From positions 1 through 20,287 of IMG/VR virus record IMGVR_UViG_3300042326_000816: DNA of 20,287 nt. One strand, 5' to 3'. The stretch's first letter is position 1. Every line of letters starts with the position of its first letter. The position numbers and the translations under genes were made by a program. Below are positions 15,604 through 19,571 of the stretch, piece after piece. The stretch is from a virus. The notes below the pieces were generated by a model. That model made no database searches. It was not told where the DNA came from and saw only the letters and a list, made by a program, of their open reading frames with translations.

Positions 15604-17493
15604 ATGGCAGAAATTTTATCACCATTTCAATCGTTTATTTTCATCTCTCGCTACTCTCGCTGGATGCCAGATTACAATCGGCGTGAATCCTGGGACGAAT
15701 GCGTTGACCGCTGGTGGAAATACTTTACCGCTAAGGTTCCGCAACTCGCAGAGCGTCCTGACGTAAAAGAAGCAATTCTCAACCTTGAGGTATTGCCTTC
15801 CATGCGTAGCCTTATGACCGCTGGACCTGCATTGGATCACGACAACACTTGCCTATATAATTGCTCGTACTTGCCAATTGACAGTCTTGATTCATTTGCG
15901 GAGCTTTTTGTTGTTCTCATGAACGGCACTGGTGTTGGCTATTCGGTTGAACATCAATACACCGACAAGCTTCCACAGGTTGCAAACAAGATTGAAAAAG
16001 TTTTTAATATCACTTATGTTGTTGAAGACTCCAAGGAAGGTTGGGGCAATGCAGTCAAGTTCCTGATGGATCACCTCTATGCAGGTCGCCACGTTAAGTG
16101 GGATCTGTCAATGATCCGTCCAGCAGGTGCAAGACTAAAGACCTTTGGTGGTCGTGCAAGCGGTCCTGCTCCTCTTGACAATCTGTTCAAGTTCATCGTC
16201 AAGGTGTTCTACAATGCACAGGGACGCAGACTCACTGCTCTTGAATGCCATGACATCTGCTGTGCAATTGCAAACGCAGTAATAGTCGGTGGTGTTCGTC
16301 GCTCGGCCATGATCTCTCTCAGCGATCTTTCGGATCGTGAGATGGCTCTCTGCAAGAGCGGTGCATGGTGGGAGCAGGCTGGTTTCCGTTCCTACGCAAA
16401 CAACTCTGCTGTCTACCGTGGTCGTCCTCCAATGGGACAATTCCTTGAGGAATGGACTTCACTATACAACAGCCATAGTGGTGAGCGTGGAATGATCAAC
16501 CGCAAGGCATTGCAAGAACAAGCAGCTAAATGGGGTCGTGATGAGATCTGTGAGTATGGCACAAATCCATGCTCGGAGATCATTCTCAAGCCATTTGAGT
16601 TCTGCAATCTCTCAACAGTTGTCGTTCGTCCTGATGACACTGCTGCTTCCTTGAAAAAGAAGATCGAAATTGCCACTATCATTGGTACGGTTCAATCTAC
16701 TTTCACTAACTTCCCATACCTTCGTCCCGAGTGGAAGAAGAACTGCGAAGAGGAGCGTCTGCTAGGTGTCAGCATGACCGGAATTTATGATAATAAATTG
16801 ACCAGCGGTCTTGAGGGTAAGCCAAAGTTGGTGCGTCTACTTGAAACCCTCCGCGACCATGCAACGGCAACGAACATGAAGTGGGCAGAGAAGCTTGGTA
16901 TCAATCCAAGCAAGTCCATTACATGCATCAAGCCAGAGGGCACGACTTCGTGCTTGGTCGATTCGGCATCGGGTCTGCACCCACGTTATGCGGAACACTA
17001 TTACCGTAGAATTCGCATTGACAAGAAGGACCCGATTTACAATCTCATGAAGGATCAAGGCGTTCCTTGCGAAGATGATGTGATTAATCCTAATAACACA
17101 GCGGTCTTCACGTTTGCCATGAAGGCCCCAAGAGGCACAATCACCACGGAAGATCTCCGTGCATTGGATCACTTGGATCTCTGGAAGACTTATCAGGAAC
17201 ATTACTGTCACCACAAGCCATCAATCACCGTCAACTATAAGGACTCTGAGTTTCTTGAGGTCGGTAACTGGCTCTGGGAAAACTTCGATGTCGCAACAGG
17301 CATCTCGTTCCTTCCCGGTGGCGACAATCACACATACGCTCAGGCTCCATTTGAGCAAATTGATTCTGCAACATATGCAGCGCATCCGAAAGTTAAAGTT
17401 AACTTCAAGGAGCTCTCTAAATATGAAGCAGAAGACAATACTGAGTCGGCAAAGGAATTTGCCTGCAGTGCTGGAGGTTGCCAGATAGTCTGA
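15604..17493 (+). CDS. nrdJ: Class II (adenosylcobalamin-dependent) ribonucleotide reductase, monomeric type
   Basis: Reduces ribonucleotides to deoxyribonucleotides using adenosylcobalamin, with no oxygen or small subunit needed. It has 629 residues, shorter than the Lactobacillus leichmannii RTPR (739). Cysteine spacing matches that enzyme: NPCSEI (C323, E325), then C334 eleven residues after C323 (as C408/C419), a probable partner Cys87 in NCSYLP, and a C-terminal CxxxxC (C621, C626; as C731/C736) for re-reduction by thioredoxin. GTGVGYSVE (108-116), GGVRRSAMISLSDLSDREM (229-247) and CIKPEGT (441-447) are further family landmarks; the inserted segment after GGVRRSA points to the monomeric type. 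AAAGGAG stands 11 bases before the ATG. GC is high (32 of 60 at 16081-16140). The tRNA starts 7 bases after its stop. Confidence 0.94.
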   Translation: MAEILSPFQSFIFISRYSRWMPDYNRRESWDECVDRWWKYFTAKVPQLAERPDVKEAILNLEVLPSMRSLMTAGPALDHDNTCLYNCSYLPIDSLDSFAELFVVLMNGTGVGYSVEHQYTDKLPQVANKIEKVFNITYVVEDSKEGWGNAVKFLMDHLYAGRHVKWDLSMIRPAGARLKTFGGRASGPAPLDNLFKFIVKVFYNAQGRRLTALECHDICCAIANAVIVGGVRRSAMISLSDLSDREMALCKSGAWWEQAGFRSYANNSAVYRGRPPMGQFLEEWTSLYNSHSGERGMINRKALQEQAAKWGRDEICEYGTNPCSEIILKPFEFCNLSTVVVRPDDTAASLKKKIEIATIIGTVQSTFTNFPYLRPEWKKNCEEERLLGVSMTGIYDNKLTSGLEGKPKLVRLLETLRDHATATNMKWAEKLGINPSKSITCIKPEGTTSCLVDSASGLHPRYAEHYYRRIRIDKKDPIYNLMKDQGVPCEDDVINPNNTAVFTFAMKAPRGTITTEDLRALDHLDLWKTYQEHYCHHKPSITVNYKDSEFLEVGNWLWENFDVATGISFLPGGDNHTYAQAPFEQIDSATYAAHPKVKVNFKELSKYEAEDNTESAKEFACSAGGCQIV

Positions 17494-17500
17494 TCCTCAA

Positions 17501-17573
17501 TCCTCTGTAGCTCAGTCGGTAGAGCGGGAAGCTGTTAACTTCCATGTCACTGGTTCGATTCCAGTCGGAGGAG
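17501..17573 (+). tRNA. tRNA-Asn (anticodon GTT)
   Basis: A complete 73-base cloverleaf. Acceptor TCCTCTG pairs with CGGAGGA (one T-G wobble), D arm GCTC/GAGC, anticodon stem GGAAG/CTTCC with loop CTGTTAA giving anticodon GTT, variable ATGTC, T arm ACTGG/CCAGT with loop TTCGATT, discriminator G. The 3' CCA is not encoded (CAT follows), so host nucleotidyltransferase must add it. Apart from the anticodon stem and a few bases it is close to the E. coli tRNA-Asn that I remember, which suggests acquisition from a proteobacterium. It lies 7 bases after the RNR stop and is probably cut from a shared transcript. The anticodon would read AAC and AAT. Confidence 0.95.
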
Positions 17574-17578
17574 CATAT

Positions 17579-17610
17579 ATAACCCCCTAGGAGCAATCCT
17601 GGGGGGTTAT
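17579..17610 (+). terminator. GNRA-capped hairpin after tRNA-Asn, terminator or processing hairpin
   Basis: A 14-bp stem (ATAACCCCCTAGGA with TCCTGGGGGGTTAT, one T-G wobble) closed by a GCAA tetraloop. No T run follows (the next bases are AAATATT), so it is not a standard rho-independent terminator. It may end the RNR-tRNA transcript by another route, protect a 3' end, or insulate the overlapping late promoter. The wobble pair works only in the plus-strand RNA, which supports that orientation. Confidence 0.7.
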
Positions 17611-17615
17611 AAATA
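17608..17615 (+). promoter_or_regulatory. T4-like late promoter of the metallopeptidase gene, leaderless geometry
   Basis: TATAAATA followed by TT, a perfect late box. Its first bases belong to the 3' arm of the preceding hairpin. The gene's ATG begins 5 bases after the box, where a late transcript should start, and no Shine-Dalgarno precedes it. Confidence 0.8.
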
Positions 17616-17620
17616 TTAGT

Positions 17621-18841
17621 ATGCTAAGATTTAAACAATTTTTACTTGAAGCGCCCTCTATAGAGAATCAATTATCTGCTATAAAAAGTTATGAAAATAG
17701 AATAAGACAACAAAATAAACTTGGTTTGTACGGAGTACATAATCCGGTAACAAACTCTATGTCTCCAGGATTGTGGTCTGATTTTACAGTATCTTCTAAA
17801 GATAATACAGTTTCTTCTCCTATTTCTGTAATTTCAGGAGGAAACAATCCTGAATATGCTGGGTTTTATGCTCCCGGGTCAAAAACAGCTCAATTGTTTA
17901 ATATCAAAAATCCTACTAAAGATTTAGAACCAGAAAGTACTGTTTTCAGACATGAAATGGCCCACGCTTATCAAGATTTAGCCCAAATAGCCCAAAATAA
18001 AAAACCACAATACTACCCTATAATTTTATCAACATCACCAAATATTAATCCTGGAAATATTAAAAATGCACCTGCCATCGGCAAACCGCGGCAAAGTAAT
18101 ACAAATACACTTGAGTACCCGGAATATTCTTATCAAGACGTTGAAGTAAATGCTAGAGCAGTAGCCAATGCTAGAAAATCACAAGATTGGTATGAAAAAG
18201 CATTAGAAAAAGGTATGCGTTATGTTGATCAAAATGATGAAAAAGCTGTTCAAGATTTAAAAAATAAATTAAGGTCTGCAGCTATGACTCTTGGTATAAA
18301 AGATGAAATAAAAACTACAGATCTCAATACTAAATGGGGTAGATATACAGACAGTGTATTAAAAGCAACTGGTACACCATCACAATCAGAGACACAAGTA
18401 GCCGGTGCAGCAAAAAAAGCAGAGAGAACAACACAAGAAAAAATTGCTAGAGGATTGGCACAAGTTGAAAATGAATTTGAGATGCCGTCTCAAGCTATTG
18501 GCGGAATTAAAACAAATACTAACCAGAATAATGTTTCAACAACTCCACGCAGCACAAATACCGTAAATCGACAGGGAATGCCTAGTAGTTCCAGTGTAAG
18601 CGGATCACCAAATATTAATTTGGCAACGGATATGGCGGTCAACATGATGGGACTATTAACTCCTCCTTCAGCAAAAGATAGAATGCAAATTGAAAAAGAT
18701 CTTAATACTGATGTTGGTTTGGGATTCGATCTTGAAGGTGGCGAACTTGTAGCAAGTCCTGAAGGATTTGAAGCGGTAAGGCGTAGACAAAATCAAGGTG
18801 TTAAATTCCCAACTGCCTTCCCGGAAAATCTTTATAAATAA
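17621..18841 (+). CDS. Predicted capsid-packaged metallopeptidase (HExxH) with T4-type capsid-targeting N terminus
   Basis: A 406-residue late protein. RHEMAHAYQD (110-119) holds a zinc-binding HExxH (H111, E112, H115); a possible third ligand is E175 in YQDVEVNARA, as in gluzincin-like families. The N terminus MLRFKQFLLE|A lines up position by position with the T4 internal-protein capsid-targeting sequence MKTYQEF(I)xE|A, which directs proteins into the prohead and is cut after Glu10 by the gp21 prohead protease. The rest is helical (about 185-285), then Ser/Thr/Asn-rich and disordered (290-345), with a C-terminal globular piece (350-406). A late box immediately upstream fits virion synthesis. 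I infer packaging and injection; an alternative is a structural protein with a degenerate zincin domain. Confidence 0.75.
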   Translation: MLRFKQFLLEAPSIENQLSAIKSYENRIRQQNKLGLYGVHNPVTNSMSPGLWSDFTVSSKDNTVSSPISVISGGNNPEYAGFYAPGSKTAQLFNIKNPTKDLEPESTVFRHEMAHAYQDLAQIAQNKKPQYYPIILSTSPNINPGNIKNAPAIGKPRQSNTNTLEYPEYSYQDVEVNARAVANARKSQDWYEKALEKGMRYVDQNDEKAVQDLKNKLRSAAMTLGIKDEIKTTDLNTKWGRYTDSVLKATGTPSQSETQVAGAAKKAERTTQEKIARGLAQVENEFEMPSQAIGGIKTNTNQNNVSTTPRSTNTVNRQGMPSSSSVSGSPNINLATDMAVNMMGLLTPPSAKDRMQIEKDLNTDVGLGFDLEGGELVASPEGFEAVRRRQNQGVKFPTAFPENLYK

Positions 18842-18860: not shown

Positions 18861-18894
18861 AAAAATCCTCCTCAACAAAGGGGAGGATTTTTTT
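18861..18894 (+). terminator. Strong rho-independent terminator after the metallopeptidase gene
   Basis: A 13-bp stem (AAAAATCCTCCTC with GGGGAGGATTTTT, one T-G wobble) with an AACAAA loop, followed by a run of seven T (18888-18894). It begins 20 bases after the stop of the metallopeptidase gene. Its T run merges directly into the next late promoter box. Confidence 0.92.
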
Positions 18895-18901: not shown

Positions 18902-18906
18902 TTTTT

Positions 18907-18994
18907 GTCGGGGATGGTGGGGTAGTTCCACGTAATCCTTTTGGAGCCTTCGAAGTAACCTCCATCGTATTACTCAGGAACCACCATCTCTGAC
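18907..18994 (+). ncRNA. Structured RNA element, long imperfect hairpin, unrecognised family
   Basis: The only non-coding stretch of notable size here (18842-19010). The ends pair: 18907-18920 with 18981-18994 makes 14 bp including two G-U wobbles. A 5-base bulge (GGTAG) is followed by TTCC with GGAA (18926-18929 / 18977-18980), an internal loop, GTAAT with ATTAC (18932-18936 / 18969-18973), then TGGAG with CTCCA (18942-18946 / 18960-18964), and an apical region containing CTTCGAAG. The wobble pairs would be C-A mismatches on the other strand, so the plus-strand RNA is the form that folds. The predicted late start coincides with the first paired base. It could be a stand-alone late RNA or the leader of the RuvC-like gene. 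I do not recognise the family. Confidence 0.65.
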
Positions 18995-18999
18995 AACGG

Positions 19000-19010: not shown

Positions 19011-19571
19011 ATGTTCTATATGCTGGTTGGAATTGACTATTCTATAACTTGCCCGTGCTTATGTCTTTATGACGAGCGCCAACCATTTAAATTTGATAAT
19101 TGTTTTTTTTATTATCTGACAAATACTAAAAAATTTGCTGATAAAATTTTGCCGAATATTACTGGTGAATCTTTTCAAGAATATATCCAGGATGTGGATA
19201 GATTTGACACAATTTCTGATTGGGCCATTAACCTTTGCGTAGGAGCCTCAGACGTGGCCATAGAGGGCTATTCCTTTGGTTCTAAGGGCCGCGTGTTCAA
19301 TCTGGCGGAAAACATGGGTATCCTAAAGCATAAGCTCTATAAGGCTGCTATACCGGTTACTATAATTGAGCCATCTAGGGCTAAAAAAATTGCTACAGGA
19401 AAGGGCAATGCTGATAAAGAAGCCATGTATGAGGCTTTTATGAAAGAAACTGGGGTTGACTTAATTAAAAAATTTGGCCAGCTAAAGCTGACCAATCCAG
19501 TAACTGATATTGTAGACAGTTACTTTATTCTGAAATCTCTGATTCAACTAAAAGATTGTCCTCAAGATTGA
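19011..19571 (+). CDS. RuvC-like Holliday-junction resolvase / RNase H-fold nuclease
   Basis: Resolves branched DNA, probably recombination and replication intermediates before packaging. It has 186 residues with the RuvC acidic set: VGIDYS (Asp9) at the start of strand 1, DVAIEGYSFGSKG (Glu85), KKIATGKGNADKEAM (125-139, with Lys136 in the conserved loop) and VTDIVDSYF (Asp166/Asp169). NLAENMGILKHKLYKA is the expected helix. The ATG at 19011 gives MFYMLVGIDYS; the ATG at 19020 gives MLVGIDYS and is the one left downstream if the late promoter starts RNA at 19013, so 19020 is an equally good start. It overlaps the convergent minus-strand gene by 47 bases. Confidence 0.85.
   Translation: MFYMLVGIDYSITCPCLCLYDERQPFKFDNCFFYYLTNTKKFADKILPNITGESFQEYIQDVDRFDTISDWAINLCVGASDVAIEGYSFGSKGRVFNLAENMGILKHKLYKAAIPVTIIEPSRAKKIATGKGNADKEAMYEAFMKETGVDLIKKFGQLKLTNPVTDIVDSYFILKSLIQLKDCPQD

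Follow-up and report, generated by a model that had tools for sequence, protein, structure and literature searches.

A Zincin-like Protein with a T4-Type Capsid-Targeting Leader at a Cassette Site of a T4-like Phage: A Probable Injected Effector

In our judgment, the gene described here rather probably encodes a zinc metalloprotease that is packaged in the capsid, is probably injected, and works in the manner of the internal proteins (IPs) of T4, from an effector locus whose cargo rotates. The protein carries a capsid-targeting tag and lies at a site where tagged proteins are swapped, and it is therefore probably injected with the viral DNA. The leader, the late-promoter sequence, the conserved predicted zinc ligands, and the exchange of both cassettes and modules are features of the sequence itself.

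The window, meaning the whole stretch of DNA that was analyzed, is a complete IMG/VR record of 20,287 bases. It encodes a family B DNA polymerase about 42–44% identical to those of Synechococcus myoviruses, together with RecA/UvsX, a DnaB-type helicase, a primase, ThyX, and a class II ribonucleotide reductase (RNR), and by its genes the source is a T4-like phage. No prohead-protease gene lies within the 20-kb window.

The Tagged Gene, Its Promoter, and Its Leader

The tagged gene (17621..18841; like all features located below in the window, on the + strand) encodes a predicted capsid-targeted, zincin-like protein of 406 aa, an assignment made from its leader, its HExxH motif, and family conservation. 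The leader MLRFKQFLLE spans 17621..17650, with a predicted prohead-protease cut after E10. According to the original prediction, MLRFKQFLLEA aligns without gaps to the T4 type (aromatic F4, F7, a hydrophobic residue at 8, E10, and A11), and this is right because T4 ipIII starts MKTYQEFIAEA. In T4, gp21 cuts after L/I-x-E, and the ten first residues of IPIII suffice for packaging (PMC9026906); here, the gp21 motif is present at the leader end as L8-L9-E10. The other residues that had been singled out are also in place: HEMAH at residues 111–115 (17951..17965), which holds predicted zinc ligands and the catalytic Glu, and E175, the predicted third zinc ligand, inside EVNAR (residues 175–179, 18143..18157), both read from family conservation.

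The late promoter proposed directly upstream can likewise be recognized. It is a putative T4-type -10 box, TATAAATA, at 17608..17615, 5 nt ahead of the ATG and without a Shine-Dalgarno sequence. The same 5-nt spacing is found in L062, L072, L076, L082, L101, and nearly all of the cassette loci described below, and non-redundant promoter/ORF pairs form a small, separate spacing peak at 5–6 nt in addition to a broad one at 15–34 nt. For a 5-nt spacing, T4 promoter geometry would put the transcription start at the ATG, and by this geometry the late mRNA of the tagged gene would be leaderless.

Is the leader more than a chance pattern? Leader-like ATG starts in the window number 1 versus 0.19 in shuffles, which is weak by itself. 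The pattern M-x2-[FY]-x2-F-[LIF]-x-E-A, searched as DNA from the ATG, has only two matches in the T4 genome (168.9 kb): ipIII, which annotation confirms, and another that we take to be ipII from its position. When TATAAATA is required 2–30 nt ahead of the pattern, at least 120 stretches are found in IMG/VR, and a decoy with the leader codons in reverse order, searched with the promoter, gave 0 matches there. By these counts the leader is not a chance pattern. The promoter-plus-leader matches listed fall into 31 cargo clusters; among the matches listed, one nucleotidyltransferase-like cluster is homologous to the virion cytidylyltransferase of cyanophage S-CREM2, and others hold muramidase-like, HAD-like, and small basic proteins, all named by motif reading.

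The commonest leader-led cargo of this census has a KWDGAPA motif (28 of the 105 unique proteins listed; L032, L019, L133, L150, and others). By motif reading it resembles ATP-dependent ligases or nucleotidyltransferases, and it is possibly another injected enzyme; its relative in S-SZBM1 (141) is without the leader.

A Site of Exchangeable Cargos

The location of the gene in a cassette was beyond the view of the original prediction. It was recognized by taking 80 IMG/VR relatives of the RNR (91–100% identity) together with their flanks. The constant 5′ flank of the site is the B12-dependent (class II) RNR (15604..17493; Pfam RNR-II_ins_dom, 9e-10), followed by a tRNA-Asn (GTT) at 17501..17574 (ARAGORN, Rfam) and, in the interval between tRNA and promoter, by a terminator-like inverted repeat read from the sequence (17580..17609), which precedes most cassette cargos in the upstream sequences compared. 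The constant 3′ flank is a RuvC-like protein (19011..19571), named by motif reading and without a match in a Pfam search, whose homologue is found downstream in cassette loci at 61–100% identity. Despite the 91–100% identical RNR, the cargo differs across the 80 loci, and the RNR–RuvC interval holds a short spacer alone, other ORFs, or leader-led proteins. At the site, about twenty records carry leader-led proteins, one or two each, nearly all of these proteins 5 nt past TATAAATA, and in L248 two such genes stand in tandem; in L242, the RNR is 99% identical and the leader-led protein just 28%. By this comparison the RNR–RuvC site is a cassette, in which promoter and leader are constant and the cargo is exchanged. 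All of the 19 cassette leaders compared have F4, K5, and E10, and all have L or I at position 8, so that L/I-x-E is present in 19/19; in 16 of them, A, G, or S stands at residue 11. The sequence MRYYGSLIED downstream of an RNR, which matched a loose regular expression and had no promoter, was set aside.

What do these cargos encode? HExxH is weak alone; what makes it strong is its presence in 8 of the 14 different cargos of the homologous site (expected 0.07; maximum 2 in 5000 shuffles) and its confinement, within the cassette loci, to four of the 118 ORFs that are 280 aa or longer, all four being leader-led cargos. The HExxH cargos are of three kinds, the catalytic parts of which have no detectable mutual similarity: the family of the window protein, a HESWH pair (the first gene of L248 and L313), and L267. 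The HESWH cargos have sub-threshold Pfam matches to zinc peptidases (SprT-like, 0.0075; DUF5700, 0.031).

The family of the window protein (P0001, the second gene of L248, L251, L289, L290, L324, and L332) is 17–40% identical in the domain. Outside the leader, its invariant columns are H111, E112, H115, Q122, Y169, EVNAR, and a few P, G, and R; in a domain-only alignment they are H, E, H, Q, Y, EVNAR, and three P/G. The leader, the zinc-ligand positions, and EVNAR make up nearly all of the invariant positions. HExxH and the downstream Glu ligand are conserved, with one homologue, L251, having the HExxxH form HEGGGH in place of HExxH. A reading of L251 as a degenerate enzyme was dropped because HExxxH is a described variant in the metallopeptidase (zincin) domains of polyvalent proteins (PMC5512222).

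Searches of Pfam, NCBIfam, and PDB with the 406-aa protein gave no family match, tblastn against 50,697 phage records gave no real relative of the zincin, and the best PHROG match (E=0.011) is a function-unknown family. The chain has one recognizable catalytic motif and is not of the very large multi-enzyme polyvalent type. An AlphaFold model of the full protein from a single sequence (pLDDT 38) was set aside; with seven sequences, pLDDT rose to 52 with pTM 0.59, and the secondary structure of this low-confidence model runs N-helix, three strands, HExxH helix, E175 helix. A helix, three strands, the HExxH helix, and a Glu helix form the zincin core order of polyvalent proteins (PMC5512222). 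Foldseek with the pLDDT 52 model against PDB and BFVD gave nothing at E≤0.001. Because of this low confidence and the lack of a Foldseek match, the predicted zinc site rests on conservation and not on the model. What holds of the tagged metallopeptidase first proposed is, by comparison with its relatives, a genuine leader with an L/I-x-E site, a late-promoter sequence, and a zincin-like cargo with conserved predicted zinc ligands; that the cargo is a zinc-dependent, protein-cutting enzyme is probable.

The protein ends in a C-terminal module A (residues 332–406, 18614..18838) that is common to unrelated leader-led cargos. Its identity is 52–53% to L249 and L250, 66% over 21 aa to L277, and 42% to L147, and on these four it joins different catalytic parts. 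A hydrophobic module B, on L251, L254, L261, L286, and L314, is similar to a stretch found in phage peptidases and endolysins. By these alignments, the C-terminal modules are swapped between cargos.

Three cargos (L249:2076-3254, L254:6520-7611, and L286:3774-4859) start ...VVPFYHKTSPEYAKKL... and may, by eye, be ADP-ribosyltransferase-like. For L249 (YHKTSP...) and L254 (YHKTDP...), this identity is a tentative lead that neither Pfam nor PDB supports.

Tagged Proteins in Virions and Known Systems

Do proteins with this leader reach the virion? The virion lists of three cultured cyanophages bear on this point. That of S-CREM2, obtained by mass spectrometry, comprises 52 proteins (PMC10665884, Table 3). 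Six annotated CDS of this phage start with the leader (one from GTG), and five of them are in the list: gp6 SAM hydrolase, gp13, gp14 kinase, gp136, and gp154 cytidylyltransferase (P by chance about 0.003 when all CDS are counted and 0.0003 for the non-structural CDS). The sixth, gp175 (55 aa), is absent from it. Of the two leader-led CDS of S-SCSM1, the NMNAT is in the virion list and ORF30 is not detected there. For S-SZBM1, the leader-led 191 and 192 are not among the 30 detected virion proteins in the list, and the sole enzyme detected starts MRFRQFIIEA, one residue shorter. Pooled over the three lists, with approximate CDS totals and the shifted S-SZBM1 case excluded, 6/10 are detected (P about 0.003), and the listed virion NMNAT/cytidylyltransferases of all three phages have the leader at their start. 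Structural proteins can bear similar leaders. By analogy with these phages, the tagged protein of the window would be present in virions.

The Cas9-like nuclease gp12, which is also listed in S-CREM2 virions (OR473000, L234, 7704-10313), has LRFASFMAEA at residues 17–26. This is likely a capsid tag, preceded by a start that is misplaced or extended.

The T4 tag, injected enzymes, and zincins in virion-delivered polyvalent proteins are each already known singly. Of the T4 IPs, IPI inhibits a restriction enzyme and IPIII enables infection of a particular strain (PMC9391042); T4 Alt is a head-packaged, injected ADP-ribosyltransferase that modifies RNA polymerase (PMC9026906). The window protein is like IPI, IPII, and IPIII in its 10-residue leader (F/Y4, F7, I/L8, E10) with an L/I-x-E cut site, in being encoded by a gene that is putatively late by its promoter sequence, and in having a tag that is found on unrelated cargos. 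Unlike the T4 IPs, which are small, basic, and without a protease, it has a zincin-like cargo of 400 aa with several domains, and its site also takes alternative cargos. As proposed here, it would resemble Alt as a head-packaged enzyme that is injected and modifies host proteins, although with different chemistry and leader length. With the zincin MPTase domains of polyvalent proteins (P1 DdrB, N4 virion RNAP) it shares a predicted HExxH helix plus glutamate helix, the HExxxH variant (in its homologue L251), modular swapping and, presumably, virion delivery (PMC5512222); those, however, are multi-enzyme proteins of giant size that lack a T4-type leader. The virion enzymes listed for S-CREM2, S-SCSM1, and S-SZBM1 (NMNAT/cytidylyltransferase, APH-like kinase, SAM hydrolase) are leader-led as well, but are metabolic or anti-restriction, whereas the window cargo is protease-like. 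The available portions of the papers on these three phages do not link the virion enzymes to a capsid-targeting sequence; several enzymes whose presence in cyanophage virions had been unexplained carry the tag. In the literature searched, we found no description of a T4-tagged zincin at a site that exchanges tagged effectors.

Proposed Role, Alternatives, and the Cassette Border

For the window protein we infer packaging, cleavage, injection, and proteolysis, along the following lines. The gene would be transcribed late from its T4-type promoter, the first ten residues would dock the protein to the prohead core, and the gp21-type protease of the phage would cut after E10, leaving a mature protein that starts at A11. 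This would be packaged alongside the DNA and enter the host at infection, where the zincin fold (HExxH helix, then the E175/EVNAR helix) would use zinc to cut a host protein. And which protein might that be? An early defence or regulatory protein, cut ahead of new phage gene products, would be plausible, and this is a guess. At the cassette site, promoter and leader would be kept and the cargo replaced, as for effectors chasing changing hosts; the replacements would comprise several zincin families, several other folds, and two exchangeable C-terminal modules.

Could the zincin act inside the particle instead, cutting itself or head proteins at packaging and not host proteins? For the metallopeptidase domains that polyvalent proteins such as P1 DdrB carry, autoprocessing has been proposed as one role (PMC5512222), and the window protein has several domains, linkers, and a C-terminal module that can be exchanged. 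T4-type phages, however, already have gp21 for processing, and the zincin would not be needed for it because other cargos at the same site retain the leader and the C-terminal modules without HExxH. The gene is also replaced or absent where the RNR is 91–99% identical, which is unsuited to a maturation enzyme; cargo swapping under a constant tag suits an injected effector better, and we regard action within the particle as unlikely. It is quite improbable that the protein is an internal or core component (filler, DNA binder, or head-length factor) in which the HExxH family persists as an inactive structural relic. Many leader-led census proteins are indeed small and basic, like T4 IPs, among the matches listed, and L251 carries HEGGGH; yet HExxxH is a described metallopeptidase variant of polyvalent proteins (PMC5512222), the invariant residues of the family are confined almost wholly to the zinc-ligand positions and EVNAR, and HExxH recurs in at least three cargo types without detectable sequence similarity among them.

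A last alternative concerns the leader, which might not be a capsid tag but conserved 5′ sequence hitchhiking alongside the promoter when cassettes are exchanged. Promoter, terminator-like repeat, and leader move as one, and the F4 and K5 codons are the same in 19/19 leaders. Against this, the codons of L2, L8, and E10 change synonymously in these 19 leaders while the amino acids are kept, similarity among the cassette proteins ends abruptly at the predicted cleavage site, the leader amino acids recur in the census at many unrelated loci and promoter spacings, and the leader marks listed virion enzymes of cultured phages. Hitchhiking is a highly improbable explanation.

If the injected protease is real, T4-like phages inject proteases at the start of infection, beyond inhibitors and ADP-ribosyltransferases. 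The signature of tag plus late promoter would then list injected effectors from sequence alone, with at least 31 cargo clusters already, and it becomes directly testable what phages deliver alongside their DNA. A broader proposal, to which we give an even chance, is that this is the clade's modular injected-effector locus, in which late promoter and tag are fixed, the catalytic domain rotates (at least three HExxH cargo kinds plus other folds), the C-terminal modules are exchangeable, and a structured RNA forms the border, and that promoter plus tag are a general mining key to virion-delivered effectors in uncultured T4-like phages.

The border is a conserved structured RNA-like element at the 3′ end of the cassette (18906..18995; fold z -3.0, with covariation), flanked by TATAAATA boxes at 18894 before it and 19000 after it. 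A search of Rfam gave no match at the gathering threshold. Copies are found in the window (18906-18995), L242:6513-6608, L254:7666-7761, and 15 other places, and 7 of the 28 pairs show compensatory changes over the 18 sequences. In L331, a second partial copy (2784-2850) lies immediately ahead of a leader-led gene.
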